A stretch of DNA of 64,000 bases, taken from contig VRMN01000001.1 of NCBI GenBank assembly GCA_008690995.1, positions 4,154,001-4,218,000 of the forward strand, read 5' to 3'. The notes beneath the pieces were generated by a model. That model had not been told where the DNA came from, searched no databases, and saw nothing but the letters and a program-made list of their open reading frames with translations. The stretch's first letter is position 1. Each line of letters opens with the position of its first letter. This document shows, in pieces, positions 5,687 through 49,162 of this stretch. The position numbers and the translations under genes were made by a program. Source of the DNA: Porphyridium purpureum (Eukaryota > Rhodophyta > Bangiophyceae > Porphyridiales > Porphyridiaceae).

Positions 5687-7662
5687 TCAGGCCCCAGTGC
5701 TGGGGACCGAAATCCCCAGCGCTTTGTGATTGCGCAATAAAATGTTCTTTGCGCCGTTGATGTCGCGGTCCATGACCGCTCCGCACACGCTGGAGCGACA
5801 CCTAAAAGTCTTGGCGCCGCCCAAGTTCGCGTTTATGGTTCCACACGCGCTGCATGTCTTTGAGGTATAGGCCTCATTGACAAGCACCAACTTCGAACCA
5901 GTTTTTCTTGCATTAAACGCCATTCGTCTTTGGAAACGAAAATGTCCCCAGGAGACCATTTGACGCGCTGCCTTGGAAGGAATCTTGCAGTCACGACGGC
6001 GCACCATATTGGACACTGCGAACGTGGGCAAAAGGATGAGGTCATACTCGCGCACAAGGAATGCGGCGAGTTGCTTGTGGACCTCATCCACCAGGTTGCG
6101 TATACATTCGCGTGCGCGGCGTGCGGCTCGGCGCAGCGCATAGCGCCGTTTTCCGCAGTTGAAATCTTGGACTTCAAATCGTCCAAGCACTTGCAGAGTC
6201 GGAAAATGCGACCGATGTCGCCGACTCCTACGGAAATTGCACGGCTCCGACCTGGATCAAAAAGCGTTTGAAATGTTCGGACGCCCGGGTCTAATGCAAC
6301 GACACGCACTTGCGCATCACGTTGGCCTTGGTTTTTGGCCATGTGTGGAGCTGGTGATTGTTGCTGTTCTTGCTGTTCTTGCTGTTCTTGCTGTTCTTGC
6401 TGTTCTTGCTGCTCTTGCTGCTCTTGCTGCTCTTGCTGCTCTTGCTGCTCTTGCTGCTCTTGCTGCTCTTGCTGCTCTTGCTGCTCTTGCTGCTCTTGCT
6501 CTTGCTGTGGTGGCGGTTCCGGCCCTAGGCCGCGTGGTATGTATCTGTGTGGTGTGCACAGATACAACTTGTTCGTCCGTGTTCGCTGCAGGCGACAATC
6601 CATCTCAAAGGGCCCGCGCGACACACCAACACCTGGACCCGTCCACAACCGCATGGGTGCGGCCCACGGCACCGAGAGGACAATGGAGTCCGCATGCTGC
6701 TCCACCCATTGTTTGCGTATATAAATTGACTCTTTTTTGTGCGCCTTTCGCGACCCAAAACCGAGCCTGAAATGCGATGCATTTCCCGCTGCCATATTGC
6801 TCCGACAAGCCTGAAACGCCGCAATCGCATCTGCACATGCGCCATCCCGAATGCCGAATGGGATGGACCTGAGCCACGGGTTCGCAGCGACGTGATCACT
6901 ACCGTTATTCACCACCCGAAACCGCAGATACTGCACCCAATTTACGGTGTTTCCACCGCTTCGCCGGTCTCCGTCCGCCTCTGGACTGTTTAAAAGCGCG
7001 ACGCAGTGGTTGTACGTCCACCGAGCAGCACCGAACAGCTGAAGTATACGCTGCTGGTCCACTCGGGAGACGGTGTTGACCTTGACTTTCGAGGCGGCTA
7101 CAGCTTCGCCCAGCTGCTTTTCAACCGCCTCGATTTCCTTTCCAGACGGCAGCTGCAAAAGCCCTTCCGCGCTTACCCGCAGCTCCGGGAGCTGCTCACC
7201 TACCGATGTCCGTGGCCAGGCCACGGGCAGGACTGACGAGGTGACCGGTATGTGCCGACCGGCCACTGCTTCCTTGCCACGTACGCGAAACCAAGTTGAT
7301 TTTGCTCGCGAGCAGAATACGCCGTCCGCGAATTCTTTCGACGTTGCTGCGGTCGGCGACCACATCAAGGCTGACATGGCCGCCATCGCCTCGGACCAGA
7401 ACGGCATCACTTCCTCCCGGTTACCCGCCGTACTCGCTCGCCGTCGTCCTGCCGAACGACGCTCTGGCATCGGCGCCGCTTCGTTCTGCGACTCACCCGC
7501 CGCTCCGCTCGCCTTCCCTGCCGCGCCGCTCGTACCCCGTGCCGTGCCGCTCGCCGCCCGCGTGCGTGCGCGCGTCACGCGCGCACTCGTACGCGCATCC
7601 TGAGACAGGACTCGCCTCCGTCGCATTGTCACACGCGATGTTCCGCTTCGTGAGCGAGCCAA
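5687..7662 (-). CDS. Fanzor (eukaryotic TnpB-like RNA-guided nuclease), two frames
   Basis: Fanzors are transposon-linked RuvC nucleases guided by an omega-RNA. The first frame (7662 down to about 6150) has a low-complexity Arg/Ala/Ser N-terminus, then the OrfB-like helical and beta region (LFGAARWTYNHCVALLN; PWLRSIPFGIRDGACADAI; FGSRKAHKKESIYI), a (QQE)n tract, and RuvC-I VVALDPGVRTF with Asp458. The second frame (from about 6160 to 5687) carries GKRRYALRRAARRARE, RuvC-II ILLPTFAVSNMVRR, NEAYTSKTCSACG, a Cys4 zinc finger and RuvC-III DRDINGAKNILLR. The canonical RuvC-II Glu position is Pro (ILLPTF). A Glu 51 residues on, before YTSKTC, fits the rearranged glutamate reported for Fanzors. The switch needs a one-base change near the AAAA run at about 6150, so the gene is either lightly broken or mis-sequenced there. 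ATG at 7662 is the furthest start; a later one is possible. Confidence 0.85.
5699..5720 (-). other. Perfect hairpin over the last codons of the Fanzor gene
   Basis: On the minus strand GCTGGGGA and TCCCCAGC pair over 8 bp around a TTTCGG loop, inside the codons for ALGISVPS, and a further GGGG(C)C follows before the TGA. In TnpB loci the guide (omega) RNA overlaps the 3' end of the gene and contains such stems. A terminator-like role is the alternative. Confidence 0.5.
6361..6502. repeat. 9-bp microsatellite coding for a (QQE)n tract
   Basis: About 16 copies of a 9-base unit. The first five read TTGCTGTTC on the + strand and the rest TTGCTGCTC. On the minus strand it codes for Gln-Gln-Glu repeats between the N-terminal region and RuvC-I of the Fanzor. 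All units are whole codons, so length change keeps the frame. Confidence 0.9.
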
Positions 7663-8000: not shown

Positions 8001-8277
8001 GTGCGCAGCAAGACGTTCCGCACGACAAAAGTGGTCGCGGTCTTTATTTCCAGGGGCATTCGAGATCTGGCATGGATCACCAATGAACTGAGTCAGCTCG
8101 AACCGTATGCGCCGCCCGGTTTCCTCGAACTCCTGTTTTTCGACACGGAACAAAAGGTGGACAAGAAAACAAGCACGCTCGATGCGCGCCATTTGGCCTT
8201 TGACCAGGCAATTCTGCGTCATGTGGAGTACGTTTCGCAGATCTTGGCGGGCCGTTCGTCTCTTATTCGCGTCAGGG
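8001..8277 (+). pseudogene. 5' part of a host reading frame interrupted by a copia insertion
   Basis: An open frame of about 92 codons without an ATG (it starts at a GTG) reads straight into the left LTR of the copia element. It holds the protein-like stretches TTKVVAVFISRGIRDLAW and PPGFLELLFFDTEQK. If one copy of the 5-bp target duplication is counted, the same frame is open on the far side of the element for about 35 more codons to a TAG at 13273. I do not recognise the family. The 5' start is unresolved. Confidence 0.4.
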
Positions 8278-8651
8278 TGTGAAGAGAACTTCGAAATCCT
8301 CGCGACGAGCTCGACGATGACCCGTGGGGACGCCACGCTTGTACCCGCAATGACTCGAGGGGTCGTCACCAATGGGGGCGCCAAGGTGACGACCGGTACG
8401 CGTAGCGGACCACCACGTGCGCGCGCTGTGCGAGCCTCAGCCCACCTGGGTCCGGGGGCGCGAGGCCGAGATATAAAAGAGGTGCCTGTGTCTTTGTCGT
8501 GGTGCTTGTCTAGACTAGGAGGCAGAGATGAATAGGTCTTAAGGTATAAAGGCGGCTTTGGAATCAGAAAGTCATCATCTCTCGGTAAGGCGACAACGCG
8601 CACCATGGCATTCGTCTACGCTCATGCCCCCATTCATAATCCTGGTTCACA
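8278..8651 (+). repeat. Left (5') LTR of the first copia element
   Basis: 374 bp, starting TGTGAAGAG and ending GGTTCACA, identical by eye to the right LTR. A TATA-like GATATAAAAG at about 8470-8479 is a likely core promoter, and a second TATAAA lies near 8544. Confidence 0.97.
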
Positions 8652-8668
8652 GGTTATGAGCCCAGCGC
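8652..8668 (+). promoter_or_regulatory. Primer binding site matching the anticodon arm of initiator tRNA-Met
   Basis: Directly after the LTR, GGTTATGAGCCCAGC is complementary to a tRNA anticodon stem-loop reading GCUGGGCUCAUAACC, as in initiator tRNA-Met. Priming by a half-tRNA of this kind is known from Drosophila copia. Match seen; use inferred. Confidence 0.7.
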
Positions 8669-11600
8669 CATTTACGCTGCGCGGGGATTGTGGAAATTAC
8701 GCTACGTGGTCAATGCAAGTGAAGCTTATTCTGTGCCAGAAGCAAGTTTGGGGTGTTGTGGGAGGAGCGGAAAAGGAGAAAGCAGCCACGCCGGCTGCGG
8801 GACAGGCAATGTCAGGAACGGGCGGTATGGACGGCTACGAGGCCGATTCGACAGCGACCACCATGATGAATGAAAAGGCACTTGGCATCATTGGTGCTCA
8901 TGTCGATGTGGCGCACCTGCATGTGGTGGCGGACGCCGTAACAGCACGGGAAGCGTGGCTGGGGTTGGAGGCGTTGGCGAAAGCCTCCGCCCCCATGTAT
9001 GTACGCGAGTTGAGGCGCCGATTGACGAACTTCGGGAAAGACCACGGGGGCAAGCCTGTCACGGAGATGATCCAGCTGCTGAGCGCGCTCCGTCGCGATA
9101 TACAGCTCGCTGGCGTTGACATGACGGAAGATGAGTACGTGAACGCAATGTTTGAGGCATTGCCAGCTGGGTTCGAAGCTGCAGAGCAGGCGTGGCTTGT
9201 AGGAGGCGGGCGAGCAACACTGCAAGAACTGCAGCCAATGCTCCTGGCCATGGAACGCGGGCAGAGGCGACAAGACGATAAAACCGGGTCGCACGCCCTT
9301 GCGGCGGCTCGTCGCGGGGAGCAGAACCGCCACTTTACTGGAAAATGTTGGGGGTGTGACCAGGAAGGTCACACCCGGCGTAATTGCCCTCGTCGGCGAC
9401 AGAGGTCAGCATCGCAAGACGCAATGTTCGCCCTCAGTGCTGCAGCAGTCAAACCACGCACATGGGCCGATGTCGTGCGTGAAAAGAAATGCCACAGCAC
9501 TTCCCAAGCTTGGATTCTGGATTCTGGAGCGTCAAGCCATATGACGGGGGAGGTCTCGCGTCTGCGAACTCGAAGACCTTGTTCTGACAAAGTACGCCTA
9601 GCCGATGGTCGTACAGTGTCAGCGGTAGCCATCGGGCAGTCTCACACGGCTGAAGGGGTCACTCTAAACGATGTCCTGTACGTACCTCACCTCTCGTATA
9701 GCCTCCTTTCGGTCCGAAAGCTAACGAGCGAGCCGGGAACGAAAGTGACGTTTGTGGACAACATGTGTTCGATACAGACAAGTGCCGGTATCCTCAAAGC
9801 GCCGCTCAACGAGAGTGGTCTTTACGCAATGATCAGCGTGCGTGAACAGCGACAACTGGATCACAGGAGAATGTGCCACCCGTATGACGATCGCATCGAT
9901 TGTGACTCGTGTGCTGTGGCAAAAGCAACGAGGAGAAGCTTTCCAAGGAACGAACGACATGCTGACGAGGCTCTGCACTTGCTGCATTCCGATTTGCTCG
10001 CCGTCACACCTAGTGGACTACGCGGTGAAAAATACCTCGTGTCCCTTGTGGACGACTACAGCGGTCTGGGCATGGTCACGGCTATTCACAACAAAACTGA
10101 GACGCAGAAAGCCGTAGCGAGCATGCTTGAGGCCATGGAGCAAAAGTGTGGTCGAAGTGCCCGCGTATTGCGGACGGACCGAGGGACGGAATTCATGAGC
10201 ACAAACTTTACCACGTGGGCGGCAGGTCGATCGCTTGCGCTCGAACCTTCGCCAGCGTACTGCCCGGAAATGAATGGCCGGGCTGAGAGATTCAACAGAA
10301 CAATCTTGGAGCGCCTTCGCGCTGTCGTTGATGATGCGGAGATCCCAAAGTGCTGGTGGCCGGAGTTAGCCCCAGCCATTGCCCATGTGCTGAACCGGAC
10401 GAAAAATGCGCGCGGTAAAATCCCGGTTCAAGCTGCATACAATGGTTCAACCGATGTCAGCCACCTGAGAAGCCTTGGCGCAATTGCCTACGTTTATGCG
10501 CGCGGAAAAGACAAACTGGACGCTCGTGCCGTCAAGGGACGGCTCGTCGGCTATGGGACCCGCCCGAAAGTCTACAGGATCATCACGGCTGAGGACGCGG
10601 TCATCGAAACCACCAATGTCCGCGTAGTTGAGGGGGGTTCACTGCCTTCGGCGAACGAAAGCGAGCTCTTCGATGTTACCTCTGTTGGGCATGATGAGGA
10701 AGGTGTCGATGATCTTGCATGCACAAGGCCGAGCCCAATTCCACACGCAACTGCCCATGTCGAGGGTGGCAGCGAGCAGGAACTGATAATAACTGGCACC
10801 AGCGGCCAACCGTCGGAGGAAGTCTCCGAATGCCCAGACTCACGCGCCAGCCACACACCCACGACGACCATCGAGATGCGACAGGAGGAGTCGGCTAATG
10901 AAGGTCCCGCAATTGAGGAAGAGACACGTATTCGCACTAGTGGGCGAGTCAAACGTATACCGGCCCGGTACAGAAGCGACACTGCTCTGCTCACTCAGCT
11001 CTTACCTGTATCCTCCCACGCAACGGCCGAGGGGCAGAAGGCCATCGACAAAGAGGTCTCGACCCTAGTTAAGCTGGGAGCCTGGGACCCGTCGAACGTA
11101 ATGGAGAGGCGTGACGCCACTAGCAGGTTCGGAGATGCCATATACGTCCGCGGTAAGGTTATCCTGTCGCTAAAACACGCGGAGGAACCCGAACGCGCGA
11201 AATTGAAGGCGAGAGTCGTGGCACAAGGATGCGTGTTACGAAACGGTGAAGGTGCAAAGGTTTGCGGCGGTGACTTCCCGTTGGAGAAAGCTGTGAGTCT
11301 GTCATCGTTTCGGACTGCCCTGGCTATAGCAACTGCATCAGGCCTCGATGTCGCATTTTTTGACATTACTGCAGCGTACTTAATATCACGACTTGAGTGG
11401 CCATGAACTTTCATCAGTTTGCCGCCAGAGGCTTGCCCATCAGCTTGGGAGAGTTATGACGACCCTGTCGTTGAATTGTTGGGTGCCTTGTACGGCATGC
11501 CCCGTTCTGGCGCGGACTACGGTATGGAAGCGCGCAAAAGATTAGTGGATGCTGGGTGGCGAGCTACCGAGAACGACATGAACCTGTACGTGAAGTCAAC

Positions 11601-12777
11601 AGGACAGGATCGCATGACGTTGTCCCTCTATGTCGATGACGGAATGCTAACTGGAAGAACAGATATTATTGAGAAGGAACTTCAATGCCTAAGACAAATC
11701 TTTCCCATCCATGAGCATGTCAGCTTCCTGTCCAACGGTGAAGCCCAATTCCTTGGCCACCGCATTTCACGAAGTGAGGGTGTTGTCTCTATCGATAACA
11801 CTAGGTATGCGGAGCATGTCATCAAGGCATTCGAGGCTCGAGAAGGGCAAGTCGTTCGCGCCCGCAAAACGCCTGCATCGCCGACCGGCAAGTCCACCAC
11901 TGCGCCTCCCGTTAGCCAGCTAACAGATCAGTTGGATGTTGTTGGTCAGCTTCTTTGGCTGAGCAGAACAACGCGTCCTGACATCAGCCAGGCCACGCGA
12001 CAGGTCGCCGAGCGTGCGGCGCGATGGGATGCGACAGCCGATGACATGTTGGAACACATCATCGGCTACCTGCGTGCGAAGACGCAGTCGAGGATCCAGT
12101 ACGGCACATCAAGCAGTCAAGGCAAGGGTTCAGGAGCACAAGTGGTGCTATTCGCCGACGCTGACCACGCCGGGTGCCCGATCACGGCTCGCTCTACAAG
12201 CGGATGGTGCGCATTTCTCGTGGAAGGGACGCAGCGCTGGCTAGTGGATTGGTCGTCCAGAAAGCAGCGGTGTGCTGCGTCGAGCACGACGGAGGCAGAA
12301 GTGGTTGCGCTTGCGGACGGGGTTGACCGTGGACTGATTCCACTTTGTGATGCTGTGGAGGCCATAACGGGTTCAGCGCCTCAAGCGGCAGTACTTGTAG
12401 ACAGCGAAGCGGCTGAAGCAGCGGTGAAGAAGGGCTACTCTTCGCGCCTAACCGCCGTGAGCAAGTACCACGGCATTCGGTTAAGTCGGTTGCATGATTT
12501 CTTCCAGGGCGAGCGAACGGCCCTGTGGAGAGTCGCATCACATGCAAATCCAGCTGACATGTTTACGAAAGCACTTTCGGCGGATGTGCTCTGTCGGCAT
12601 GCGCGGAGCCTGCAGTGGAGCGACGAATTTACCAATGAACACGACTGTTGGAAAGCCGCACACCGCGCCTTGATGTCACCGACGATGCTCCAGGATGCAA
12701 GGCATCGCCAGACGCAACTGTACAGCCCAGGAGAAGACCAAGAGATGACATTCGAACAAGCACTCGTTGCTCCTCGC

Positions 12778-12789
12778 GAGGAGGGGGCG
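12778..12789 (+). promoter_or_regulatory. Polypurine tract of the first copia element
   Basis: GAGGAGGGGGCG directly before the right LTR, the expected plus-strand priming site. Confidence 0.7.
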
Positions 12790-13163
12790 TGTGAAGAGAA
12801 CTTCGAAATCCTCGCGACGAGCTCGACGATGACCCGTGGGGACGCCACGCTTGTACCCGCAATGACTCGAGGGGTCGTCACCAATGGGGGCGCCAAGGTG
12901 ACGACCGGTACGCGTAGCGGACCACCACGTGCGCGCGCTGTGCGAGCCTCAGCCCACCTGGGTCCGGGGGCGCGAGGCCGAGATATAAAAGAGGTGCCTG
13001 TGTCTTTGTCGTGGTGCTTGTCTAGACTAGGAGGCAGAGATGAATAGGTCTTAAGGTATAAAGGCGGCTTTGGAATCAGAAAGTCATCATCTCTCGGTAA
13101 GGCGACAACGCGCACCATGGCATTCGTCTACGCTCATGCCCCCATTCATAATCCTGGTTCACA
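12790..13163 (+). repeat. Right (3') LTR of the first copia element
   Basis: 374 bp, identical by eye to 8278-8651, followed by the target duplication CAGGG. Confidence 0.97.
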
Positions 13164-19765: not shown

Positions 19766-22603
19766 ATGTCGACGGGAAAGAGAGTAGCGCTGGAGGAAGG
19801 TCTCAAAGTTGCTGGCGCAGTTGTTGATGATGTCGGGGCTGTACTTCCGTATGTGGCGGTCGCTTACGCAGTTACGAAGATTATTATAGAGTATGCGGAG
19901 GCCGCCAAGGCGAACAAGGCCTCATGCAAGTTGCTGGCTAGGCGCGCCAGTTGCATAAGAAGCATACTTTTAGATTATTTTGGACCCGATGGCGAAAAGC
20001 TCGTGAGCAAGACAGACGACTTGAGGCACAGCAGTCTCCTTGACTGCCTCAGTGAGCTCGAGTCTGAACTTCAAGCCGCATGCTCGCTTGTGAAAAAGTT
20101 TTCAAGTTGCGAAAGCACGTTCGAAAGAGTGCTTCGCGCATTGCGGGCGAAGAACTACCGAGGCGAGTTTCAGACGTGCGGCAATCGGCTCATCGAATTC
20201 GAGTCACGACTTTCGAACATCATCACGTTCAAAATCGGACACGACCAAAACAAGAATCATCAGGAGATGATGCGCGCCCTTGAAGAGGATAGGGTGGGAG
20301 ATAGATCGATGCTAGAGCGCGAACTACGGACTCGCCCGGAGAAGAACGCCGTTCTCCAAATGCTCAGCGAGCCCGTGGATATTTCAAAGCCGCACTTGAA
20401 CGCAGGCAATTTACAGGACGGTGATTCAACCAAGCCGCAGCACGCTGAGCCGTGGTTCATAGATGTTGCTCATATCGAAAAGGAAGAGCATAGCAATGGT
20501 AAGAAGGGAAAGTTTGTTGAACTCGGCGCCGGCGGCTTTGGGACGGTTTACCGCGGCACGTGCATGGGAGAGACAGTTGCCATCAAGCAAGTCAATTCAT
20601 CAAGCGACACCGCGATACGGGAGTTCAAAAACGAGCTGGGAATGATGTGGCGAGCTTCGCACGAGAATATCATTCGGACGCATGGAGGTTTTTACCCACT
20701 GGAAGGTGTGGACGACCACGTAGGCGAAGTGCCGCTTATTCTGCTCGAATATGCCCCGAAAGGTTCGCTTGAAAAGTACATGTTCGCTGACAAGAAGGAA
20801 ACGTTGCTTCCGAATGATATCTTGTTGTGCATTTTTCGTGGGATTTTGGATGGTTTGAAGTATCTACACGCAAGCAACGTCGTGCACCGAGATATCAAGC
20901 CCCAAAACATTCTTCTTATGGATGACTTCACGCCGAAGATCAGTGATTTCGGGTTGGCTACTGTGAAGAACACCTATTCATTTGCAAACACAACGCTAGG
21001 TACCAGGGGCTATATGGCGCCCGAGGTTATCCGTGGTGACCGATACAATCGCTCCTGCGACGTGTGGTCGTACGGCGTCATGCTGTTCGAAATGATGCTC
21101 GGCGAGCGGATGTTAGAAAGCGGATGCATGGATGTCAAAATTTTGACGATTCTTGAAGACCCGAAGCGAGGCGTGCCGTGGGACAAATTGAACAAGTCGG
21201 AGTACGCAAAACAATGGCCTGACTGGGTGGTAAGTATGGCAAAGGCGTGCCTGCAGACCAAGCCCGAGAAGCGCCCGACTGCATCGGATATCTGGCTTCA
21301 ACTTTATGACTGTATGGGTAAGGAGGGGGCCACTGTGGCTGCAAAGTCTCAGAACTTTCAGTATGCTACGTCCTCATCCAGCACCAGCACAGCAAAGGTT
21401 GATGCGTTGGCTGCGAAATTTTCGTATGTCACGCTGTCATCTGGTGGGTCCGCAGCCTCATCATCAAGTGCCGCAGGCAGCGCGGCGGGGCCTAGTGGAT
21501 CGCGGCCTCAATATGCACAGGCGCTGAGTGCTCAAGAAAAGCTCCGCCTTGCAGAAGAATGCGAGAAAGCGGGGAACATGGCGAATGCGTACACGTACGT
21601 CAAGCTAGCTGCCGAAGAAGGCATCGCGGAGGGCCGGTTCCGGCTGGGCAAGATTTTGCTAGAAGGTTCGCACGGCATGCGCCAGCACTTGGAGCACGGC
21701 GCGGGTTGGGTGCGCGCAGCTGCTGAGAGTGGGCACACGGACGCCATGATTGAGTATGGTCGTTGCTACCACTCTGGACGAGGAGTACCGCAGAACTGTA
21801 GCCTTGCGAAGGAATGGTATGCAAAGGCCGCAATGCTCGGCAATTCGGCCGGGTCCGCATGGCTGAAAGCGTTGGAGGCGGAAGAGCAGACATTGCTCAT
21901 TCGACAGCAGCTTGACGAGAAGAAGAAGAAAGTGCAGCGCGAGCGTGAGGCTGAGGCACACGCGGCCGCCGTACGTCAGGCAGCGGCGTTGGAGCAGGCC
22001 CATCTCGAAAGGGAAGCGCGAGAACTGGTCGCGGAGCGCGAAGCCGAAGCTGCTGCTGCACGGAGGCGTGAGCAAGAAGCCGCACAATGCGCGGCCGCTG
22101 CCGCCGCCGCAGCAGCAGAGCAAACGCGCCGCGACGTCATGGAATGGCAACGACGTGGTCAAACCGAGGAGCTGAACAAGAATTTCACAGAAGCGCTGCT
22201 TTGGTACCGCAAGGCTGCGCAAGCAGGAGACGCTTACTCGCAGTGCAAGCTGGGCTCTTTTTTCTCGAACGGATTGGGTGGTCTGCGCGAGAACAAGTGC
22301 GCGGCGCTAGTTTGGTTCCGCAAGGCCGCGGAACAGGGATATGCACCGGCGCAGTGCAATTTGGGCTTTTGCTACGCGAACGGGTGGGGTGATCTGCGGG
22401 AAGACAAGCGCGCAGCCGTCGGGTGGTACCGCAGGGCCGCGGAACAAGGAAACGCATCGGCGCAATATAACTTGGGCAGGTGTTACGAGAATGGGTGGGG
22501 AGGTCTACGCGTAGACAAGCGGGCAATGATCGAGTGGTACAGCAAGGCCGCGGAACAAGGACAAGCACAGGCGATGGATAGGTTGAAAAAACTAGGTCAC
22601 TAG
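19766..22603 (+). CDS. MLKL-like helical domain + protein kinase + Sel1 repeats (copy 1)
   Basis: A 945-residue protein with an ATG in AAACATG context. Residues 1-155 are helical and resemble the four-helix N-terminus of MLKL/HeLo-type cell-death proteins (YAVTKIIIEYAEAAKANKASC, ELESELQAACSLVKKFSS, EFQTCGNRLIEFESRL). The kinase domain, about 245-520, looks active and TKL-like: glycine loop GAGGFG (254-259), VAIK Lys274, HRDIKPQN with Asp376, DFG Asp394, then APEV and SCDVWSYGVMLFEM. A Ser/Ala-rich linker leads to Sel1/TPR-like repeats at 592-708. A Glu/Ala/Arg-rich coiled coil follows (709-790, REREAEAHAAA) and then more Sel1 repeats (793-945, WYRKAAQAGDAYSQCKLG). Sel1 units usually bind partner proteins. 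The order recalls plant MLKLs and the Sel1-kinases of arbuscular mycorrhizal fungi. Role in signalling or cell death is inferred. Confidence 0.9.
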   Translation: MSTGKRVALEEGLKVAGAVVDDVGAVLPYVAVAYAVTKIIIEYAEAAKANKASCKLLARRASCIRSILLDYFGPDGEKLVSKTDDLRHSSLLDCLSELESELQAACSLVKKFSSCESTFERVLRALRAKNYRGEFQTCGNRLIEFESRLSNIITFKIGHDQNKNHQEMMRALEEDRVGDRSMLERELRTRPEKNAVLQMLSEPVDISKPHLNAGNLQDGDSTKPQHAEPWFIDVAHIEKEEHSNGKKGKFVELGAGGFGTVYRGTCMGETVAIKQVNSSSDTAIREFKNELGMMWRASHENIIRTHGGFYPLEGVDDHVGEVPLILLEYAPKGSLEKYMFADKKETLLPNDILLCIFRGILDGLKYLHASNVVHRDIKPQNILLMDDFTPKISDFGLATVKNTYSFANTTLGTRGYMAPEVIRGDRYNRSCDVWSYGVMLFEMMLGERMLESGCMDVKILTILEDPKRGVPWDKLNKSEYAKQWPDWVVSMAKACLQTKPEKRPTASDIWLQLYDCMGKEGATVAAKSQNFQYATSSSSTSTAKVDALAAKFSYVTLSSGGSAASSSSAAGSAAGPSGSRPQYAQALSAQEKLRLAEECEKAGNMANAYTYVKLAAEEGIAEGRFRLGKILLEGSHGMRQHLEHGAGWVRAAAESGHTDAMIEYGRCYHSGRGVPQNCSLAKEWYAKAAMLGNSAGSAWLKALEAEEQTLLIRQQLDEKKKKVQREREAEAHAAAVRQAAALEQAHLEREARELVAEREAEAAAARRREQEAAQCAAAAAAAAAEQTRRDVMEWQRRGQTEELNKNFTEALLWYRKAAQAGDAYSQCKLGSFFSNGLGGLRENKCAALVWFRKAAEQGYAPAQCNLGFCYANGWGDLREDKRAAVGWYRRAAEQGNASAQYNLGRCYENGWGGLRVDKRAMIEWYSKAAEQGQAQAMDRLKKLGH

Positions 22604-26193: not shown

Positions 26194-27528
26194 ATGATGG
26201 TGAACGCCATGAAGATGTTCGCTCTGGGCATCCTGGTGGTTGCGATTGCCGTCCTCGCAGGTCATGGAACGGCCCAGACAGATGACTTTGGGACAATTGC
26301 TGGGTACACGTTTGAGAGTGACGTCATTGACAGGGCAGAAATTGATCTTGATATGGCGGACATCAGCTCTCTCACTGACGCATCCGAGTTTGTGGAGGCC
26401 AAGACTCTGTATGAGAAAGGGCTGAATTCCGTGAAAGCAGACGGATCGATCCGTACGATTCGTGGCCTGTCGACTTCGGCGGGTACCAAGATGACGGGTC
26501 AGCCTACCTTTGACACTTATGAGGCCTACTGGGGTTCTCCAAACTATGGGGATAACTTTGTTATTCAGGCACTCGATGGGACAGGCATGTTTGCCGCGGC
26601 TTCGAATATCTTTCGGGCCGAATGTGCCACTAAGGGTGCCCAGTACCAGATTGTGTGGATGTATGTGATCCACGAACTTGAGGACGGCCGAAATGATTGT
26701 CTCGCCGGAGACATCACTGACAACATTGGGGGTGTGCAGGCAGTCGACGAGGGATGGGCCTTTTACACTGGTTCCTTGGTAGGGGAACTTGGAACAGAAG
26801 CCGGACAACTGGTCTGGGGTTTGGCGGAGAAGCGTGCTACCAACTTTGACACTATCACCGACGGAAAGGCAACCGTGAACACCAGGCTTTTGGAGTTGTG
26901 GAAAAAGTTGCAGGCATCGAGCCAGAGTGATTGCGCGAACATGCGCGAAGATATTGGTGAAGTCATCAGGCTGCTGCTGATCCCTCTGTACCAAGGAGCC
27001 CTTCGCTACGCTTACAGAGCGGATCCTGCCAGTGGCTTCGGCGGAGGAAGCAAGGAGTGGGGAGAAGGATGGGCTTTTGTGGCCGCCCTCTTGCCGATGG
27101 CCGCAAGGGAAAACGCTGACGACGCTGCTTACATTCGCGACAATTTTGACCCGGAAAGCACCAAAGCTCCGGTAGGCGACGGGTACAAGGCAGTAATGGA
27201 CCGCCTGTACAGCAGTGCAGCGAAGCTTGGCATTTCGGAAGAGGAGTTGGGACGCCTTGAAGATTTGGACGCTGGAGGAAACCCTGGAGGCGCTGGCGAG
27301 AACAATGTTGAGAGCAGCGGCCTCAGCGGAGGAGCGATTGCCGGTATTGTTATTGGAAGTCTTGTCGGTGCGGCTCTCGTCGTGATGGGTGGATTATACT
27401 TCTGGAGGCGTCAGCAGTCGAAGAAGGTTCTTCAGGCGCACAACAAGTCCCTCGATCACGATAATGAGACGGTCTCGTCTTCGTCGCCGTATGGCAAGGA
27501 CGATTACATTCCTTCTGCGGGTCCGTAA
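26194..27528 (+). CDS. FEA1: Phytotransferrin / FEA1-type iron-binding surface protein
   Basis: Iron-deficiency proteins of this family (Chlamydomonas FEA1, diatom ISIP2A/phytotransferrin) bind ferric iron at the cell surface. The 444-residue product has a signal peptide (about 1-28, MFALGILVVAIAVLAGHGTA) and one Fea1 domain with family blocks FVIQALDGTGMF, YQIVWMYVIHELEDG..DC, DEGWAFYTGSLVG, LVWGLAEKRATNFDT, IPLYQGALRYAYRAD and KEWGEGWAFVAALLP. A Gly-rich stretch leads to one transmembrane helix (about 379-405, IVIGSLVGAALVVMGGLYFW) with a basic stop and a short Ser-rich tail, so it is a type I membrane protein. Chlamydomonas FEA1 is soluble and periplasmic; ISIP2A is membrane-bound, so this arrangement is closer to ISIP2A but with one repeat. 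The ATG at 26194 is clear. Confidence 0.92.
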   Translation: MMVNAMKMFALGILVVAIAVLAGHGTAQTDDFGTIAGYTFESDVIDRAEIDLDMADISSLTDASEFVEAKTLYEKGLNSVKADGSIRTIRGLSTSAGTKMTGQPTFDTYEAYWGSPNYGDNFVIQALDGTGMFAAASNIFRAECATKGAQYQIVWMYVIHELEDGRNDCLAGDITDNIGGVQAVDEGWAFYTGSLVGELGTEAGQLVWGLAEKRATNFDTITDGKATVNTRLLELWKKLQASSQSDCANMREDIGEVIRLLLIPLYQGALRYAYRADPASGFGGGSKEWGEGWAFVAALLPMAARENADDAAYIRDNFDPESTKAPVGDGYKAVMDRLYSSAAKLGISEEELGRLEDLDAGGNPGGAGENNVESSGLSGGAIAGIVIGSLVGAALVVMGGLYFWRRQQSKKVLQAHNKSLDHDNETVSSSSPYGKDDYIPSAGP

Positions 27529-28109: not shown

Positions 28110-29160
28110 CAGTATTTTACCATTTTGCCCGTCGCATGGAAACGGGACGCTGGATGATGAGAAAGTGCGTGTTCAAGTTGCGCTGGACTCGCAGTGGGTG
28201 TACAGCGATGGGCGGAGCGTGCAGGAGCGCGGGTGGCAGGTTGCGCGGGTCGTGTGGGGCGTGCGCGATCGGGAGTGCAGCTGTAGGCCAGCTCCGACTC
28301 GGCAAGACTTTGCTCGACGGCTCGCATGGCATGAGTCAGCACGTGGAGCATGGCACGGGTTGGGTGCGCGCAGCTGCTGAGGAAGGACGCACGGACGCCG
28401 TGATTGAGGTTGGCAGCTGCGACCACTCTCGGCGGCGAGTGCCGCAGAGCTTGAGCCTTGCGAAGGAGTTCGATGTGAGGGGGCGCAAAGCTCGGCAGCT
28501 CGGCAGCTCGGCGGGGTCCGCATGACTGGACGCGGTACGGCCCAAAGAGTAGACGGCGCTGAGACGGAAGCAGTTTGCCAATCAGAGGCAGAAAGCGGAA
28601 CGTGAGCGTGAGGCTCAGGCGCTCGCAGCTGCCGTGCCGTTGGCAGCTAGAGATGAGCAGGCTGATTTCGCCGCCGAGGCTGTAGACCATGTGCGTGTCG
28701 CCCCGAAAGCCGAGATTGCGGATCGGGTGGAAGCGCTGCGCCGCGAACTAGAAGCGGCACGACGCGATGACGCGGCGGCGTCGCGAGCCAGGCGACCGCG
28801 GATGCGCAGTCTCGTCTCGAGAAAGAGACGCGACATTTGGCCGCGCGACTCGACGCGAAAGTGACCGCAGCATGGCGGCTTGCAGAAGAGGCTGCTTCAT
28901 GCGACGCCGCAAACTGGCAGCAACGTGGCCGGACCGAGGAGTTTGACAAGAAGAATTTTGTGGAAGCGCGGGTGAGGTACCGCAAGGCGGCACTCGTGGG
29001 AGATGCCTGCCCGCAGGGTTAGCTGGGCTATTTTTACCTTAGCGAATGGGAAGAGCTGCCGCAGAACAAGCGCACAGCGGTCGAATGCTACCGTCAGGCC
29101 GCGAAGTAAGGATATGCAGGGGCGCAATAAATTTGCTGGCGCTTGATACCATGGCGGGGA
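28110..29160 (+). pseudogene. Relic of a third kinase/Sel1 family member (Sel1 and coiled-coil part)
   Basis: Pieces of the C-terminal half survive in several frames. A Sel1 piece at about 28300-28525 (GMSQHVEHGTGWVRAAAEEG) matches both intact paralogues (GMRQHLEHGAGWVRAAAESG in copy 1). A charged coiled-coil piece lies at about 28590-28860. A last Sel1 piece at about 28910-29130 (WQQRGRTEEFDKKNFVEARV; KRTAVECYRQAAK) contains in-frame stops. The N-terminal helical domain and kinase are absent. It is a host gene fossil with multiple frameshifts and stops. Confidence 0.85.
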
Positions 29161-33989: not shown

Positions 33990-35340
33990 TGCAGCGATTC
34001 TGCATTTGCTGCGCATGTATCCCGGCGACGCGCTTGTCCATTAGCTTTTGCGACGTACCTGTGCAAAGCGCGCGAAAGGAAGCTTGCAAAGCGATCACCC
34101 GCTCTTATCATCAAGAGACCCGGTCTCCAGCTTCGACCATAATATCGCTAAGAGGCAAAGGATTTTCAAGCCTACGCCGCCGCGGACACTCTGGTATTTA
34201 CTGATACAGGTGACGCTCATGCAGCGTACATTTTAGCTGCATGATTCTGCAAAGGTATTCACGCGCTTCGTGGTCCTTTCCCGACTTGACAAAGGCCGAG
34301 ACAAGTACGTGCGGTGGTTCGTACGGCGGCGTGACACCCATCTCGCGGTAGTTGGCGCCTAGCCAACACGCATTGTCAACCTCGTCGTGCGCACAGATGT
34401 ACGGATCGCACTCCAGCAAAGCGGCGTCCGCTTGAATGCTTTTCGAGTGCGCTAATAAACACATGTTTTTCCGCACTCGTAATGCTGCGTGAGCCTTCTC
34501 ATTCCGACAAAAGGCTGGAAATGGCATTCGATGTGGCGTCTGTTCTTACGCTGCAGCAGATGTCCAGACGCTGGCGGAATATTTGGGACAAAAGGTGAGG
34601 CCGGTGGCAAGTCACAAAAAATTCATTACGAGGCCGCGGCATAAGACTGGGTAAACGAGATATCGCTGAATGATTTCGATTCATCTCTTTATGACCGGGG
34701 CCTCTTTTTCCCTCTCAACGTCGGACCAGCGCGAGAATGTGTGTCAGAACATGTGAATCGAACGACACTTGGTCAATTGACGCTCGGCTGAATATCTGTA
34801 ACACAACTTTTAGCGCAAGCCGAGGTCTAGCACAGACTTGGAACTCTAAATTATTTTTTTCTTTCTCGCTGTCTCTGTTGCCATCTCCCTTGACCACAAC
34901 TTGTCTCGCAATGTGGAAGCGATTATCGACAGTGCGCGCAGCGAACGGCGCGTAGCGGTGTTGCCAAACAACTTGGTCCACTTCATGTCAACCAGCCAGG
35001 TCATTGAGCCCGGCTCGCAGCTGCTCGTTGAGCTCGTGCGCGGGCACGATGACGGGTGCGTGGAACGTCGTCCCGCGCTCACCGCGTCGACCTCTTACAC
35101 GAATGTCGTCGCCTTGGTCTCGAAGCTGCCTCTTACGATCGGAATTTCCGCTGCGTTGCTGTATGCAGCGTGACGAGCTTGTAAGGGATCGAGTCCAGGT
35201 GCGCGTCTGACCGGAGCACGTGCAAGGATTTTCAACCTGCTGCGGCGCTGATGGATGCCCTCGGTTACGAACGGCAAGGGTCACGATCCGCCTCACCCAC
35301 AGACTCCTACGCGGTCCTCGCTGGGCAAGCGCCCGGAGCG
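33990..35340 (-). pseudogene. Relic of the tandem PPR-like genes (block 1)
   Basis: Minus-strand pieces match both PPR-like genes of block 2. The piece at 34198-34527 corresponds to the middle and C-terminal part of PPR-B (VLVSAFVKSGKDHEAREYL versus VLVSAFVNSGNYKEAREYM). 34560-34680 matches an earlier part of PPR-B (CHRPHLLSQIFRQRLD). 34715-34981 and 34988-35296 match the N-terminal part of PPR-A (HRYAPFAARTVDNRFHIARQ; ELNEQLRAGL). The C-terminal half of A and N-terminal half of B are missing, which looks like one internal deletion fusing the two tandem genes, followed by frameshifts and stops. One piece (34988-35296) is more open here than in block 2 and suggests how the PPR-A N-terminus once read. 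Confidence 0.8.
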
Positions 35341-36028
35341 CCGACTATTGGACGCTTTGCGATGCAGAATGAAACATTGACACCAACGATCCCTTTCTGC
35401 GCTACCACGAACTCTACATCATGCGAATGGGAGTGCGGCATCAGTACTTGTTCATGCAGAGACTATTCCAGGTTGTCAAGTCCGAACGCGTCTTTGTCGC
35501 CAAGCCACTTGATGTTCTCATTCCCTGAGGCTCCACGGAGGTGGGAAGGGGTAGATGACTGGAGAGGACGAGAGAATGGCCCAAGCTGACTGCTTCTGCT
35601 GCGCCCAGGCCTCAGCGGGCTAATGCTCAGTGCGCGGAACACATGTGTCGACTGCGGATCAGCATACGCTGGCGCCTCGCGGGCGGAATCCGAAATCTCA
35701 ATGTGCGTCATACTCAACGTAGAGGGCATCGTCCGTGGTTGCCTTTTGCCGGACTGCGTGCGCGACCTGTTCCGATTCGGCGGTACTGTAAATGAGTGAC
35801 GAACGCCGTCCACAGAAACCGGTCCAGCCCGTGAGTAATTTATACATAGAAAACAGAGTCCTTTTGTAAAGGAACTGCTACTATCAAACGGCGTCAGAGC
35901 CAAGCATGCGCTTTACCGATGAAATCAAGCTGTGGCCAACGTCAAGAGGTCTGGGCTGCGGCTCTTTAATAGATGATCTCCTCGCCCGACGGAAGCGCAC
36001 AGACAAGGTCTCAAGAGCAGGATTCGAA

Positions 36029-37519
36029 ATGTTTCAAGGTGCTGTAGGAAGTGTAGTGGCAATCCTGCTGATCTTCGGTTCGGTGCTGGCGGCACAAGCA
36101 GAGCGCCGTCCGAGTGATTTTGCCGCCCGTTCGCAGTGGAACTCATTTGACCTTCTCAAGGCAGCGGAGAAAGACCATGTCGTGGGTAATGGCTTCCAGA
36201 CGCACAGCGCGAACGTGACTGTCCCATTTTTCATGTACGAGCCTGACCACTTTCTGGCATATTCAAAGTGCTCGAAGGCGATCTGGAGTCCCAAGCATAC
36301 GATCGACGTATTATTTGTGGAGCGGCTTCAGAATCATCCGTGGAGGACAAGCCAGCCTCAGGATGCCGAGTTATTTGTCGTGCCCGTGCTACTGAGCGCC
36401 TTGGCTCTCGACAGATGCAACGTAAGTGTATCAAAGGGCTTGATCCAAATGAAAGAGTATCTTGAAAGGAGTCCATGGTACACCAGATACAAAGGCCGTG
36501 ATCACCTTGTTCTCATGACCCAGTGGCAAAACCGGAATGTCATGCTGCATCATCTTGGGCATACAATACTAATCGGCTCGTATACCCGTGACACAGTGGC
36601 AGCCTATCGAAATGTTTTTGTTGTCGGGTTTTTGGATAACTACGCGGCGATGACAGCAGAGAGTCGGAACGCAGACGGATACTTTTCAAAGTGGAATTAT
36701 GCGAACAGTGCGAAAATGCCACGGACTTTGGTGGTCCGGTGGATGGGTTTGAACAGGTATTTTCGTGGAAGCGCGGTGCTTCCACGGCTGAATCGAAAGG
36801 CTCTCTTCACCGAGCGCGACGCAGACACTGATTATCACGTAGGCGATGATCTTTTCCTGAGCGTCAAACTAATGGAAGGAGAAGTGCGGACTCAATATCC
36901 CGAAATCCCGGACTGCAATCGGACAGAATTTATCACAAACTTGAAGATCTACGAATCGATTCCCTTGGTCGGAAGCAGTCCTCGAGTTCCGAAGTGGACT
37001 GCTGATCGATGCATTCAACCGTTGGGATTTTCCAGGGTGGTCGCCCATCGCATTACGGAAATCTCGCACTTTTCGCTCCTTCTGGCGGGAGACAACCCGG
37101 AAAGTGATACGCTCTACAATTCGATAGCCGCCCGCTCCATTCCGGTTCTTTTCGTCGAAGATGAAAAGCACGACTTCTTGTATGAGTGTATGGCTCATTT
37201 TGATTTCCCTTGGAAGGATATTGCGCTCGTGTTCAGTGGTCCAGAGTTTCGCGAGGACCCGATGCGCGTCATCCGGTATTTGCGCGATATGGTTCAGAAC
37301 GAGCCTGAGGACCTCGCTCGGAGAGTCAAACTCATGGATGATCACGCACGCGACTTGGTGTGGTCAGAGCCGGGCTCACGCGTCCACGAGAAAATTTTGA
37401 TTGATGCATGGAAGCTGTCCAAGGGCAATCTCTCCAGAAGTATAGAACCACCAAAAATGCGTAGCCTGAAGAAGCCAGGCGCGTCGCCTCTGAGCAGGGA
37501 TTTGCAGAACCGTTCGTGA
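36029..37519 (+). CDS. Exostosin/GT47-like glycosyltransferase (block 1 copy)
   Basis: Secretory-pathway glycosyltransferase-like protein. An ATG exists at 35906, but the paralogue begins at the equivalent of 36029 (MFQ...), directly with a signal peptide or anchor (VGSVVAILLIFGSVLAAQA) before ERRPSD. The upstream 41 codons are not conserved as coding DNA in block 2, so 36029 is preferred (496 residues). GT47 features: VPFFMYEPDHFLAYSKCSKAI, ELFVVPVLLSAL early on, and HFSLLLAGDNPESDTLYNSI followed by RSIPVLFVED, the family's C-terminal nucleotide-sugar region (usually LCPRGDSP..R...A...G.IPV). The arginines of the usual motif are replaced, so activity is uncertain. Algal members are candidates for cell-wall or exopolysaccharide synthesis; the substrate is unknown. 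Confidence 0.78.
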   Translation: MFQGAVGSVVAILLIFGSVLAAQAERRPSDFAARSQWNSFDLLKAAEKDHVVGNGFQTHSANVTVPFFMYEPDHFLAYSKCSKAIWSPKHTIDVLFVERLQNHPWRTSQPQDAELFVVPVLLSALALDRCNVSVSKGLIQMKEYLERSPWYTRYKGRDHLVLMTQWQNRNVMLHHLGHTILIGSYTRDTVAAYRNVFVVGFLDNYAAMTAESRNADGYFSKWNYANSAKMPRTLVVRWMGLNRYFRGSAVLPRLNRKALFTERDADTDYHVGDDLFLSVKLMEGEVRTQYPEIPDCNRTEFITNLKIYESIPLVGSSPRVPKWTADRCIQPLGFSRVVAHRITEISHFSLLLAGDNPESDTLYNSIAARSIPVLFVEDEKHDFLYECMAHFDFPWKDIALVFSGPEFREDPMRVIRYLRDMVQNEPEDLARRVKLMDDHARDLVWSEPGSRVHEKILIDAWKLSKGNLSRSIEPPKMRSLKKPGASPLSRDLQNRS

Positions 37520-37650
37520 CGCCACTGCGACGGAACACACTGCAACCCTGTGTCAATGTGCTGGATGTGACTAGAGATGTGCGCGTTCCGAATATACGCA
37601 GATCCGCGTGTTTCAGTGCTTGACGCTCTGAAAAAACAGCGGAGCGTCTT

Positions 37651-38602: not shown

Positions 38603-41356
38603 ATGGCAAAGGCAAAGAACTTGATATTCGAGAACTGTGTCGAAGTGGCTGGCTTAGCAGCCAATGATGTCGGGCCTGTGCTCCCATACGTGGCGGTCGC
38701 TTACGCGGTTACCAAGCTTATTGTAGAGCACGCAAAGGCTGCGCAGGCAAACCAAGCATCTTGTGCGAAGCTTGCCGAGCGGGCAACCAGCATTTCGACC
38801 ATTCTGGGTACGTATTTTGGCACGAATGCCGGAAAACGTGTCAATGGCACGCACAATGTGAAGGACGCTGGCATGATTGAGTGCTTGAGCCAGTTGGAGT
38901 CTGAACTGCAGTCTGCGTGCGCGCTTGTGAAGCGATTTTCCAGTGCGGAGAAGTGGACCGAAAAGGCGTTTCGCGCCTTGGCGGCGAAGAATTTTCAGGG
39001 CGAGTTCATGACGTGTGAAGCACGCCTCGTCGAGCTCGAGACACGATTGTCGCGTATCATCATATTCAAAATGGCGCACGACCATGAGGAAAAGTACCAA
39101 AATGTGATTGGTAAGTTGGAAGGCGCCCTTCTCAAGTTGAAAGCCGTCCCGTACGAGATGGCTCGCGCTCTTGAAGAGGACAGGCGGCGCGATACAGTGA
39201 CACTTGAGAATAAGCTTCGATCTCATCCGGAAAAAGTCGCGGTGCTCGGCATGCACAGTGCGGAAGTGAAATACACAAGTTCGTACTTACACGCGGCGAA
39301 TGCGGGGCGCGCTTCAAACGGACCCGAAGGAAGTGAACCTTGGTACATTGAGGCAACACTTGCTGAGAAGCATCGGAATGGTGAGAGCAAGAGGATACCA
39401 TTCGTTCCGCTTGGCAATGGTGGCTCTGGGAACGTGTTCAAGGGTAAGTTCATGGGGCAGGAAATAGCCATCAAAGAGATCAAGTCGAAAGGCAACAAGG
39501 CGATGCGCGAGCTGAGAAATGAGGTGGGCATCATGTGGAGGCTTTCTCACGAAAACGTCGTACAGACACTCGGTGGGTTTTACCCACGGACGGGCGTGAA
39601 AGCTCATGAACATGAAAGCCCTTTCATTGTGCTCGAGTTTGCCCCGAAAGGCTCCCTTGAAAATTACATGTTCCATGACAGCGGAGGCAGCTTGCTATTA
39701 CGCGATGAACTACTCAGAATCTTTCGATGCATTATAGATGGCTTGAAGTATTTGCACGGAAATAAGATTATCCATCGCGATATGAAACCCCAGAACATTC
39801 TTCTCATGGATGACTTGACTCCGAAGATTTGCGATTTCGGGCTGGCCACGATGAAGAATTCGTGTTCTCTTGCAAGCGGGTGGCTTGGTACAATCGGGTA
39901 CATGGCACCCGAGGTTATCCGTGGTGACCAGTACAACCGCTCCTGCGATGTGTGGTCATACGGCGTCATGTTGTTTGAGATGATGCTTGGCGAGCCGATG
40001 TTTGGAAGCAAGTGCACGGTTGGTGACGTTTTAAATGTTCTCGGAGATCCGAAGCGGGGTGTGCCGTGGAACAGATTGAACACGTCGGAATACGCAAAAC
40101 AATGGCCGGTCTGGGTGGCAAAATTAGCAAGGGCGTGTCTACAGAATAACCCCGAGGAGCGCCCAACTGTTTCGGATATTTGGCTTGAGTTTTATGAGCG
40201 TCTGGATACGGAGGGGGCCATTGCGGCTGCGAAGTCTCAGAAGCATCAGTATGCTGCGTCTCCGTCAGGCAACAGCACGGCTAGGGTTGATGCGGTCACC
40301 GGAAACATTTCGCACGTCACGGTAGCACCTGGTGGGTCCGCAGCCTCAGCATCAAGTGTCGGAGGTTGTGCGGTGGGGCCACGTGGATCCCGGCCCGTTC
40401 ATGGAAAAGTGCAAAGTGCTGACGAAAAGCTCTGCTTTGCAGAAGAATGCGAGAAGGCGGGGAACATGGCGAATGCGTATACGTATATCAAGCAAGCAGC
40501 GGAAGCTGGTATCACGGAAGGCCAGTTTCGGCTGGGCAAGATTTTGCTCGACGGCTCGCACGGCATGTGCCAGCATTTGGAGTATGGGGCGGGCTGGGTG
40601 CGCACAGCTGCTGAGAAAGGACACATGGACGCCATGATTGAGTTGGGGCGCTGCTACCATGGTGGGCGGGGATTAACACAGACTTTGACCCTTGCGAAAG
40701 AGTGGTATGCAAGGGCGGCGAAGCTCGGCAGTCGGGACGGGTCGGCATCGCTCGAAAGTATAGAGGCCGAAGAGCGGCACTTGCGCCACAATACCGCAGA
40801 TCGACTATCTCGTATTCAGACCAAGGAGCCGGCCAACATGAACTCCGCGAAAGCGCCGACTTATTACGGCCAGGTCGCAGAACAAGGAGGCGCACTGGCA
40901 CAGTACAAGTTGGGCACTTGTTACACAAGCGCGTGGGGCGATCTGGTTGAGAACATACACGCGGTTGTTGACTCGCACCGCCATGTCGCGGAGCAGGGAG
41001 ACACGCAGGCACGGAACCAATCAGGCACGGATTTCGCGAAGGATTGGGGCGGTCTGCTCGAGAATAAGTGCGCGTCGGTAGACTGGTACTGGCAGGGCAC
41101 GGAGCCAAGTCGTGCACCCGCTCAGAATGTGTTAGGCAATTGGTCCGCGAACGCGTGGGGCGTTCTGGCTGAGAACGCATACGCGGTTGTTTACTCGCAC
41201 CACCAGGGCGCGGAACGTGGTCATGCCCCGGCTCAACAGACATTGGGCACATGTTCCGCGAATGAGTGGGGCAGTCTGCCCGAGAATAGATTTGCGATGG
41301 TTCACTCGCACCGCCAGGCCGCAGAGCAAGGAGACATGCGGACACAGATCGGCTGA
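38603..41356 (+). CDS. MLKL-like helical domain + protein kinase + Sel1 repeats (copy 2)
   Basis: Paralogue of the gene at 19766. The frame opens at a GTG (38588), but the first ATG, 38603, aligns with the paralogue's start and gives 917 residues. Helical MLKL-like N-terminus (VAYAVTKLIVEHAKAAQANQ; LESELQSACALVKRFSS) about 1-190, with ~20 residues more than copy 1 before the linker. The kinase has glycine loop GNGGSGNV, AIK lysine, HRDMKPQN, DFGLAT and APEV, so it looks catalytically competent. First Sel1 set (AEECEKAGNMANAYTYIKQA to LAKEWYARAAKLGS) is well kept. The last ~180 residues hold about five Sel1-derived repeats that have drifted together: the usual WYRKAAEQG is replaced by VVDSHRHVAEQG-type units, and the long coiled coil of copy 1 is missing. 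Function inferred as for copy 1. Confidence 0.9.
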   Translation: MAKAKNLIFENCVEVAGLAANDVGPVLPYVAVAYAVTKLIVEHAKAAQANQASCAKLAERATSISTILGTYFGTNAGKRVNGTHNVKDAGMIECLSQLESELQSACALVKRFSSAEKWTEKAFRALAAKNFQGEFMTCEARLVELETRLSRIIIFKMAHDHEEKYQNVIGKLEGALLKLKAVPYEMARALEEDRRRDTVTLENKLRSHPEKVAVLGMHSAEVKYTSSYLHAANAGRASNGPEGSEPWYIEATLAEKHRNGESKRIPFVPLGNGGSGNVFKGKFMGQEIAIKEIKSKGNKAMRELRNEVGIMWRLSHENVVQTLGGFYPRTGVKAHEHESPFIVLEFAPKGSLENYMFHDSGGSLLLRDELLRIFRCIIDGLKYLHGNKIIHRDMKPQNILLMDDLTPKICDFGLATMKNSCSLASGWLGTIGYMAPEVIRGDQYNRSCDVWSYGVMLFEMMLGEPMFGSKCTVGDVLNVLGDPKRGVPWNRLNTSEYAKQWPVWVAKLARACLQNNPEERPTVSDIWLEFYERLDTEGAIAAAKSQKHQYAASPSGNSTARVDAVTGNISHVTVAPGGSAASASSVGGCAVGPRGSRPVHGKVQSADEKLCFAEECEKAGNMANAYTYIKQAAEAGITEGQFRLGKILLDGSHGMCQHLEYGAGWVRTAAEKGHMDAMIELGRCYHGGRGLTQTLTLAKEWYARAAKLGSRDGSASLESIEAEERHLRHNTADRLSRIQTKEPANMNSAKAPTYYGQVAEQGGALAQYKLGTCYTSAWGDLVENIHAVVDSHRHVAEQGDTQARNQSGTDFAKDWGGLLENKCASVDWYWQGTEPSRAPAQNVLGNWSANAWGVLAENAYAVVYSHHQGAERGHAPAQQTLGTCSANEWGSLPENRFAMVHSHRQAAEQGDMRTQIG

Positions 41357-45302: not shown

Positions 45303-45365
45303 CTTTCCGCTGCGTTGCTACGGATCGCGTCCGGATGCTTGTCTGAGCACAACGGGAGCATGCAT

Positions 45366-47593: not shown

Positions 47594-47735
47594 TCGCTCT
47601 GAGCAAGGATTCGCATATCGTGCGTGACGCCACTGAGTCGTAACAGGCTGCAACCCTGAGGTAAGAAGCCCGACGTTCTGTCCAATGTGCGCAGGTCCGC
47701 ATGTATCAATGATTGGCGCTCTGAAATGATGCGGA

Positions 47736-49143: not shown

Positions 49144-49162
49144 CTCGCCCATCTTCTTTTCA
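49144..49162 (-). promoter_or_regulatory. Polypurine tract of the second copia element
   Basis: On the minus strand a purine-rich run, GAAAAGAAGATGGGCGAG, directly precedes the 3' LTR. Confidence 0.6.

Follow-up and report, generated by a model that had tools for sequence, protein, structure and literature searches.

The window analysed here is a stretch of 64,000 nucleotides (contig VRMN01000001.1 of assembly GCA_008690995.1, positions 4,154,001 to 4,218,000) deposited as Porphyridium purpureum. It carries two complete paralogous genes, named K1 and K2 in this work, and a decayed third copy. The products of K1 and K2 are 55% identical along their alignment and share one domain order: an N-terminal helical domain, a protein kinase and Sel1 repeats. 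A first-pass annotation of the K1 open reading frame (ORF), made from its letters, had described an MLKL-like N-terminus, a kinase with intact motifs and Sel1 repeats around a coiled coil, and had spoken of "kinases" in the plural, which the presence of the paralogue K2 bears out. The genes and their parts are as follows:

19766..22603, plus strand: K1, a single uninterrupted ORF from ATG to stop, 945 amino acids (aa), with the layout MLKL_N-like domain, kinase, Sel1, coil, Sel1
19766..19870, plus strand: K1 residues 1-35, an extension ahead of the MLKL_N match, which starts at residue 36
19871..20275, plus strand: K1 MLKL_N-like domain, residues 36-170 on positions 7-129 of the 142 of the profile
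20519..21292, plus strand: K1 protein kinase domain, residues 252-509, VAIK, HRD and DFG intact
21536..21880, plus strand: K1 first Sel1 block, about residues 591-705, sharing 75% identity with K2
21881..22150, plus strand: K1 coil, charged and alanine-rich, about residues 706-795, mostly absent from K2
22151..22600, plus strand: K1 second Sel1 block, at about residues 796-945 and containing tandem units of 111 base pairs (bp)
28280..29135, plus strand: third copy, a decayed remnant of Sel1 and coil sequence, interrupted by stops and shifts of frame
38603..41356, plus strand: K2, paralogue of K1, a complete gene of 917 aa counted from the ATG
38708..39058, plus strand: K2 MLKL_N-like domain, residues 36-152 on profile positions 7-111
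39410..40180, plus strand: K2 kinase domain, residues 270-526, which retains the catalytic Lys, HRD and DFG
40628..40732, plus strand: the sole Sel1 repeat of K2 reported by Pfam

Kinase and repeat regions of K1 and K2

The DNA similarity between K1 and K2 starts 59 bases upstream of the start codon in both genes; in the list of ORFs, K2 is given a GTG start located 15 bases before its ATG. Next to the third copy (28280-29135), tblastn searches at expectation values (E) up to 0.01 found neither a kinase nor an N-terminal domain. The gene that adjoins this decayed copy (29459-32431, minus strand) encodes a dynamin-family GTPase (Dynamin_N, E 1.3e-11).

The kinase domains are recognized by Pfam (Pkinase) with an E of 6.2e-55 in K1 and of 2.6e-54 in K2. 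The positions previously assigned to the catalytic residues of K1 are right: Lys274 lies in VAIK (271-274), Asp376 in HRD (374-376) and Asp394 in DFG, and these three columns are invariant in K2. Judging from these motifs, both kinases look active. Among the best 60 of 621 PDB sequence matches, the nearest to the K1 kinase are IRAK4 and B-Raf; among the best 60 of 123 obtained with the K2 kinase, an EGFR entry comes first, followed by LRRK2 and B-Raf. These best matches, which provide a rough test, make a tyrosine-kinase-like (TKL) placement likely.

The description of Sel1 repeats on both sides of a coil also agrees with our results for K1, in which Pfam reports five Sel1 stretches (E 3.2e-37). 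The alanine- and charge-rich region between the two blocks was judged by eye to be a coiled coil. The last Sel1 repeats of K1 are built on a 111-bp tandem array (22239-22573, 3.0 copies). The single Sel1 stretch of K2 reaches 30.6 bits when the whole protein is scanned, against a cut-off of 30.7, and 35.4 bits when the C-terminal part is scanned; the later repeats look degenerate and the reading frame stays open.

Selection was estimated by a simple pairwise Nei-Gojobori count of nonsynonymous (dN) and synonymous (dS) divergence between K1 and K2, i.e., from two sequences with a high dS:

N-terminal domain core, residues 27-160: dN 0.31, dS 1.59
Linker, residues 166-249: dN 0.50, dS 1.59, ratio 0.31
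Kinase: dN 0.23, dS 1.14
Linker, residues 511-590: dN 0.28, dS 0.39, ratio 0.73
First Sel1 block: dN 0.15, dS 0.56
Coil: dN 0.92, dS 2.22, ratio 0.41
Last Sel1 block: dN 0.47, dS 1.14, ratio 0.41

The core of the N-terminal domain and the kinase are under purifying selection and are equally constrained (ratio about 0.2). The low dS found in residues 511-705 suggests later gene conversion in this part of the genes.

The N-terminal domain and its match to MLKL_N

MLKL_N (PF22215) is the top Pfam family in all nine constructs of the isolated N-terminal domains. For K1, the E values are 4.6e-5 (residues 1-225), 5.3e-5 (1-165), 2.5e-5 (21-175), 3.5e-5 (27-160) and 6.5e-5 (1-250), with scores of 22.9-24.2 bits in these five constructs. 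For K2, they are 2.3e-4 (1-236), 1.5e-4 (1-165), 1.1e-4 (21-190) and 9.5e-5 (27-160), with 21.1-22.4 bits in these four constructs. The register of the match is equal in the two proteins, residue 36 falling on profile position 7, and the match extends to position 129 in K1 and to position 111 in K2. The score varies with what else is present in the scanned sequence, the E reaching 1.8e-4 within residues 1-520 of K1 and 0.0034 within the whole K2.

DUF7792 is a weak second family in all nine isolated constructs (E 0.0013-0.044, and 0.0013-0.0049 in those of K2), under its cut-off, and MLKL_N outscores it in every scan in which both are listed. RPW8 matches K1 only, and weakly (E 0.0081-0.083), three of the five isolated K1 constructs giving 0.0081-0.016, also under the cut-off. 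HeLo families have Pfam entries, and no HeLo/HELL-type family appears in the Pfam scans at E up to 10, a setting at which the filters of the program drop most matches above about 0.1; no NOD domain appears in the Pfam scans of K1 and K2 either. The NCBIfam matches of whole K1 are all to bacterial kinase and repeat families and lie far below the cut-offs of these families.

Several controls bear on the MLKL_N match. Ten artificial sequences were scanned, seven obtained by shuffling inside residue classes, two by complete shuffling and one by reversal; none hit MLKL_N, their best E to any family being 0.01, and nine other proteins of the window gave no match to it at E up to 0.01. The MLKL_N profile was also run over 300 bacterial genomes (151 and 149, from the groups of two metagenome-assembled genomes titled Chloroflexi and Acidobacteria); these scans score six-frame stretches after a loose prefilter, and their bits are only roughly comparable with those of the isolated constructs. 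Matches at E <= 0.1 were found in 34 of these genomes (13 of 151 and 21 of 149), none above the cut-off; the top score is 21.0 bits, on profile positions 23-81, and the scores of K1 are clearly above it. A further small scan matched none of four genomes. Among 14 named control genomes, matches were found in three in one scan and in one in two other scans, none above the cut-off. Overall, the N-terminal domain appears to be related to MLKL_N beyond chance; a chance match is unlikely for K1 and, less firmly, for K2, and a relation to the MLKL_NTD/RPW8 superfamily is most likely.

One of the bacterial sequences, a frame of 748 aa, shows a weak match to MLKL_N (18.4 bits, E 0.0024) on profile positions 7-109, which may be due to chance or to a distant bundle.

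AlphaFold2 models were built for residues 1-210 of K1 and 1-163 of K2 from an alignment of the two window sequences only, and have a mean predicted local distance difference test (pLDDT) score of 45.6 and 43.7, respectively. Both place helices at about residues 2-20, 26-46, 51-72, 89-110, 116-128 and from 135 on; the order of the helices agrees between the two models, but both derive from the same two sequences. The succession of long and short helices in these low-confidence models would be compatible with the layout of human MLKL, a four-helix bundle and a two-helix brace, preceded by one extra helix, a likeness that proves nothing at such pLDDT values. The most hydrophobic stretch of 19 residues is located at residues 23-41 in both proteins and straddles the end of the N-terminal extension of K1. 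The segments whose hydrophobic moment is rarely attained by shuffled sequences are K1 89-110, K1 116-127 and K2 116-128; overall, helix amphipathicity, calculated on 12 segments taken from the models, did not discriminate. The coiled-coil domain of potato Rx is present in the Foldseek lists of both models at E about 6, a level at which it is meaningless.

Surroundings in the window

The neighbouring genes (ferric reductase, Fea1, dynamin-like GTPase and GT47 exostosins) provide no reliable functional link to K1 and K2. A scan for bacterial-type promoters and terminators upstream of K1 found nothing, which says little for a eukaryote. The other features of the window are:

5687..7662, minus strand: TnpB/Fanzor-like gene split over two frames
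8277..13163: Copia-type long terminal repeat (LTR) element whose terminal repeats, each of 375 bp, show 100% identity
23477..25201, minus strand: ferric reductase-like gene
26194..27528, plus strand: gene of Fea1, a low-iron-inducible periplasmic protein
34600..37633 and 44759..47726: direct duplication of about 3 kb (73.5% identity) with two GT47 exostosin-like genes
48849..54007: second LTR element, with minus-strand ORFs and an RVT_2 match; its repeats share about 99% identity over 296 bp

The ferric reductase-like gene and the Fea1 gene are divergent and could be an iron-uptake pair; Fea1 is typical of algae. The split gene at 5687-7662 places a relative of TnpB-like nucleases in a eukaryotic-looking window. 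Its downstream part (ORF 5687-6256) matches the Cas12f1-like TNB family (PF07282) at E 7.1e-19, with a weaker match to OrfB_IS605 (E 0.0057). Its upstream part (ORF 5833-7662), for which the Pfam matches are of the low-complexity type only, contains the stretch ALDPGVRTF and a long repeat of QEQ. The coding region of the Copia-type element consists of two ORFs, the first of which has gag and integrase matches; since its terminal repeats are identical, this element was probably inserted recently.

Interpretation and comparison with known systems

Taken together, the profile matches and motifs indicate that K1 and K2 very probably have an architecture of the MLKL_NTD/HeLo-kinase kind to which Sel1 repeats are added. 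As an overall explanation, we lean, with modest confidence, towards receptor-like signalling proteins of this kind. That their output concerns membranes or cell death is a tentative proposal to which we give somewhat less than an even chance; the cell-death or immune role put forward in the first-pass annotation can only be inferred. Most plausibly, the proteins combine a sensor, a kinase and a membrane effector, and they may kill cells. In such a scheme, the Sel1 end would bind a partner or a ligand, and this binding would cluster the protein and switch on the kinase, which might then phosphorylate a partner or the helical linker. Freed from this linker, the N-terminal bundle would act at a membrane, where it might recruit partners or, like MLKL and RPW8-type domains, make the membrane permeable.

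Several results weigh against this explanation. Every MLKL_N score is under the curated cut-off of Pfam (27 bits), the best being 24.2, and MLKL_N is not listed for the whole K1 in a Pfam scan at E up to 1. The likeness of the N-terminus to MLKL that had been claimed from the sequence stands as a best family match in every isolated construct, but its scores do not reach the threshold of the family, and the HeLo/HELL part of the claim found no profile match. The scores of K2 barely exceed the best bacterial score. NCBIfam gives nothing for either N-terminal domain at E up to 10, and searches of PDB sequences with these domains yielded best E values of 0.09 and 0.43. Both AlphaFold2 models are of low confidence and not reliable; Foldseek returned 81 and 98 matches for them at E <= 10 and none at E <= 0.001, MLKL being absent among the best 50 of 81 and the best 50 of 98. 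For only three of the 12 model helix segments did 5% or less of 2000 shuffles attain the observed hydrophobic moment. The last Sel1 block is less constrained than the N-terminal domain and the kinase, but nothing marks the repeats as a diversifying sensor, because the coil (ratio 0.41) and the linker 511-590 (0.73) are equally or less constrained. Finally, whole-protein relatives were not found among viral contigs and genome contigs, in collections devoid of algae and fungi; these scans, seeded by a few short peptide patterns, reach close relatives only. A single scan, of the genome contigs, yielded loci, four bacterial ones matching the kinase domain (30-33% identity), which are not whole-protein relatives.

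Could the N-terminal domain be an unrelated helical region that matches MLKL_N by chance? The scores below the curated cut-off and the absence of the family from the whole-K1 list would agree with this, as would the low scores that other helical proteins obtain in the bacterial genomes, and K2 alone would hardly stand out. However, the library-wide E values are 2.5e-5 to 6.5e-5 for K1 and 9.5e-5 to 2.3e-4 for K2, the match covers most of the profile in the same register in both proteins, the shuffled and reversed controls are all negative and K1 scores above the best of the 300 genomes. We therefore regard a chance match as very improbable.

The N-terminal bundle could also be a non-lethal adaptor that anchors the kinase to a membrane or within a complex, K1 and K2 then being ordinary kinases of stress or nutrient signalling. 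The kinase is intact and conserved, and the second match of both paralogues is to DUF7792, a family of no known function, which suggests that killing may not be common to the whole of the wider helical superfamily. One publication deals with Pm13 (AelMLKL) of Aegilops longissima, a protein of 476 aa in which an MLKL_NTD is followed by a brace and by a kinase that has the residues for activity; 11 of 14 susceptible mutants carry changes spread over these three parts, with loss of mildew resistance. The publication leaves undecided whether the N-terminal domain of Pm13 kills or perceives (PMC10951266). However, MLKL_N beats DUF7792 wherever both are listed, and related domains are described as cell-death domains, those of HeLo, RPW8-type and MLKL proteins being treated as one cell-death superfamily (PMC12881547, PMC10197012). 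An adaptor role is quite conceivable, though we would not count on it. At the other extreme, each protein could be a device for necroptosis in one chain, the kinase acting as RIPK3 and the N-terminal domain as MLKL to kill infected or stressed cells. The domain order, the intact kinase and the presence of two paralogues beside a decayed third copy are in keeping with this, and all-in-one cell-death receptors are present in fungi (PMC12881547). However, this reading is drawn from sequence, two paralogues are too few for assessing diversifying selection, and the ratio of the last Sel1 block (0.41) is still purifying. We consider such a device rather unlikely. More doubtful still is the broader proposal that algae outside the land-plant line have an all-in-one necroptosis-like receptor, with a Sel1 sensor, a RIPK3-like active kinase and an MLKL-type executioner, encoded by a small duplicating family whose layout would be shared with arbuscular mycorrhizal fungi through deep ancestry or gene transfer.

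Concerning algae, the only title bearing on MLKL in Porphyridium, red algae or Rhodophyta among those listed by literature searches is a survey of 67 protists (PMC7539657). It reports no homologues of mammalian necroptosis and pyroptosis regulators and calls these pathways likely exclusive to vertebrates; Porphyridium is named in its section on autophagy. MLKL was searched there with human sequences (PMC7539657); such queries could well miss proteins as distant as K1 and K2. A study of a red seaweed includes Sel1-repeat proteins among potential pathogen receptors (PMC12115072).

Four groups of known proteins can be compared with K1 and K2. Animal and Arabidopsis MLKL resemble them in having an N-terminal helical domain of the MLKL_N family followed by a kinase fold. 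Neither is known to carry Sel1 repeats. The animal and Arabidopsis proteins end in a pseudokinase (PMC10951266), whereas VAIK, HRD and DFG are intact in K1, with the same residues in K2. The first brace helix of human MLKL, H6, holds its bundle (residues 1-124) (PMC8433767). The first-pass annotation had opposed K1 to animal and plant MLKLs in general; this contrast holds for the animal and Arabidopsis proteins but is too sharp for plants as a whole, since Pm13 joins an MLKL N-terminal domain to an active-looking kinase (PMC10951266), and the fungal proteins described below also blunt it. Pm13 resembles K1 and K2 in the succession of an MLKL_NTD and a kinase with catalytic residues, the N-terminal domain of K1 and K2 being below the curated cut-off; it differs by its length and by a kinase closest to plant receptor-like kinases, and the passages cited mention no Sel1 repeats (PMC10951266).

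Provided that the MLKL_N match is genuine, fungal HeLo/HELL proteins and NLRs (PMC12881547, PMC10197012) would share a broader four-helix superfamily with K1 and K2, and HELL domains are in some cases fused to a kinase or a pseudokinase (PMC12881547). They differ from K1 and K2, in whose Pfam scans neither a HeLo-type family nor a NOD domain was found; amyloid motifs were not searched. In Rhizophagus, the kinase and the Sel1-like families are expanded (PMC8647823). Among the early-diverging fungi studied, MLKL-family homologues (TCDB 1.A.105) with Sel1 repeats are exclusive to Glomeromycotina (PMC8778642), with which the previous remark on Sel1-kinases of arbuscular mycorrhizal fungi agrees. 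As in K1 and K2, an MLKL-family resemblance and Sel1 repeats are found in one protein; the difference is that the hosts are fungi whereas the host is probably an alga here; the passage concerned does not specify which domain is MLKL-like (PMC8778642).

K1 and K2 are not classed as MLKL because they lack the pseudokinase feature and their N-terminal domain scores under the curated cut-off. They would fit a more loosely defined kind, the MLKL_NTD-kinase fusions, to which Sel1 repeats are added; this kind is known, and we found no report of it from algae. If this reading is true, the range of the module made of an MLKL-type N-terminal domain and an active-looking kinase would extend to an alga, and a one-protein system would be available for testing the switch from kinase to executioner. 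The module of the alga would also be linked to Pm13 and to the Glomeromycotina proteins.

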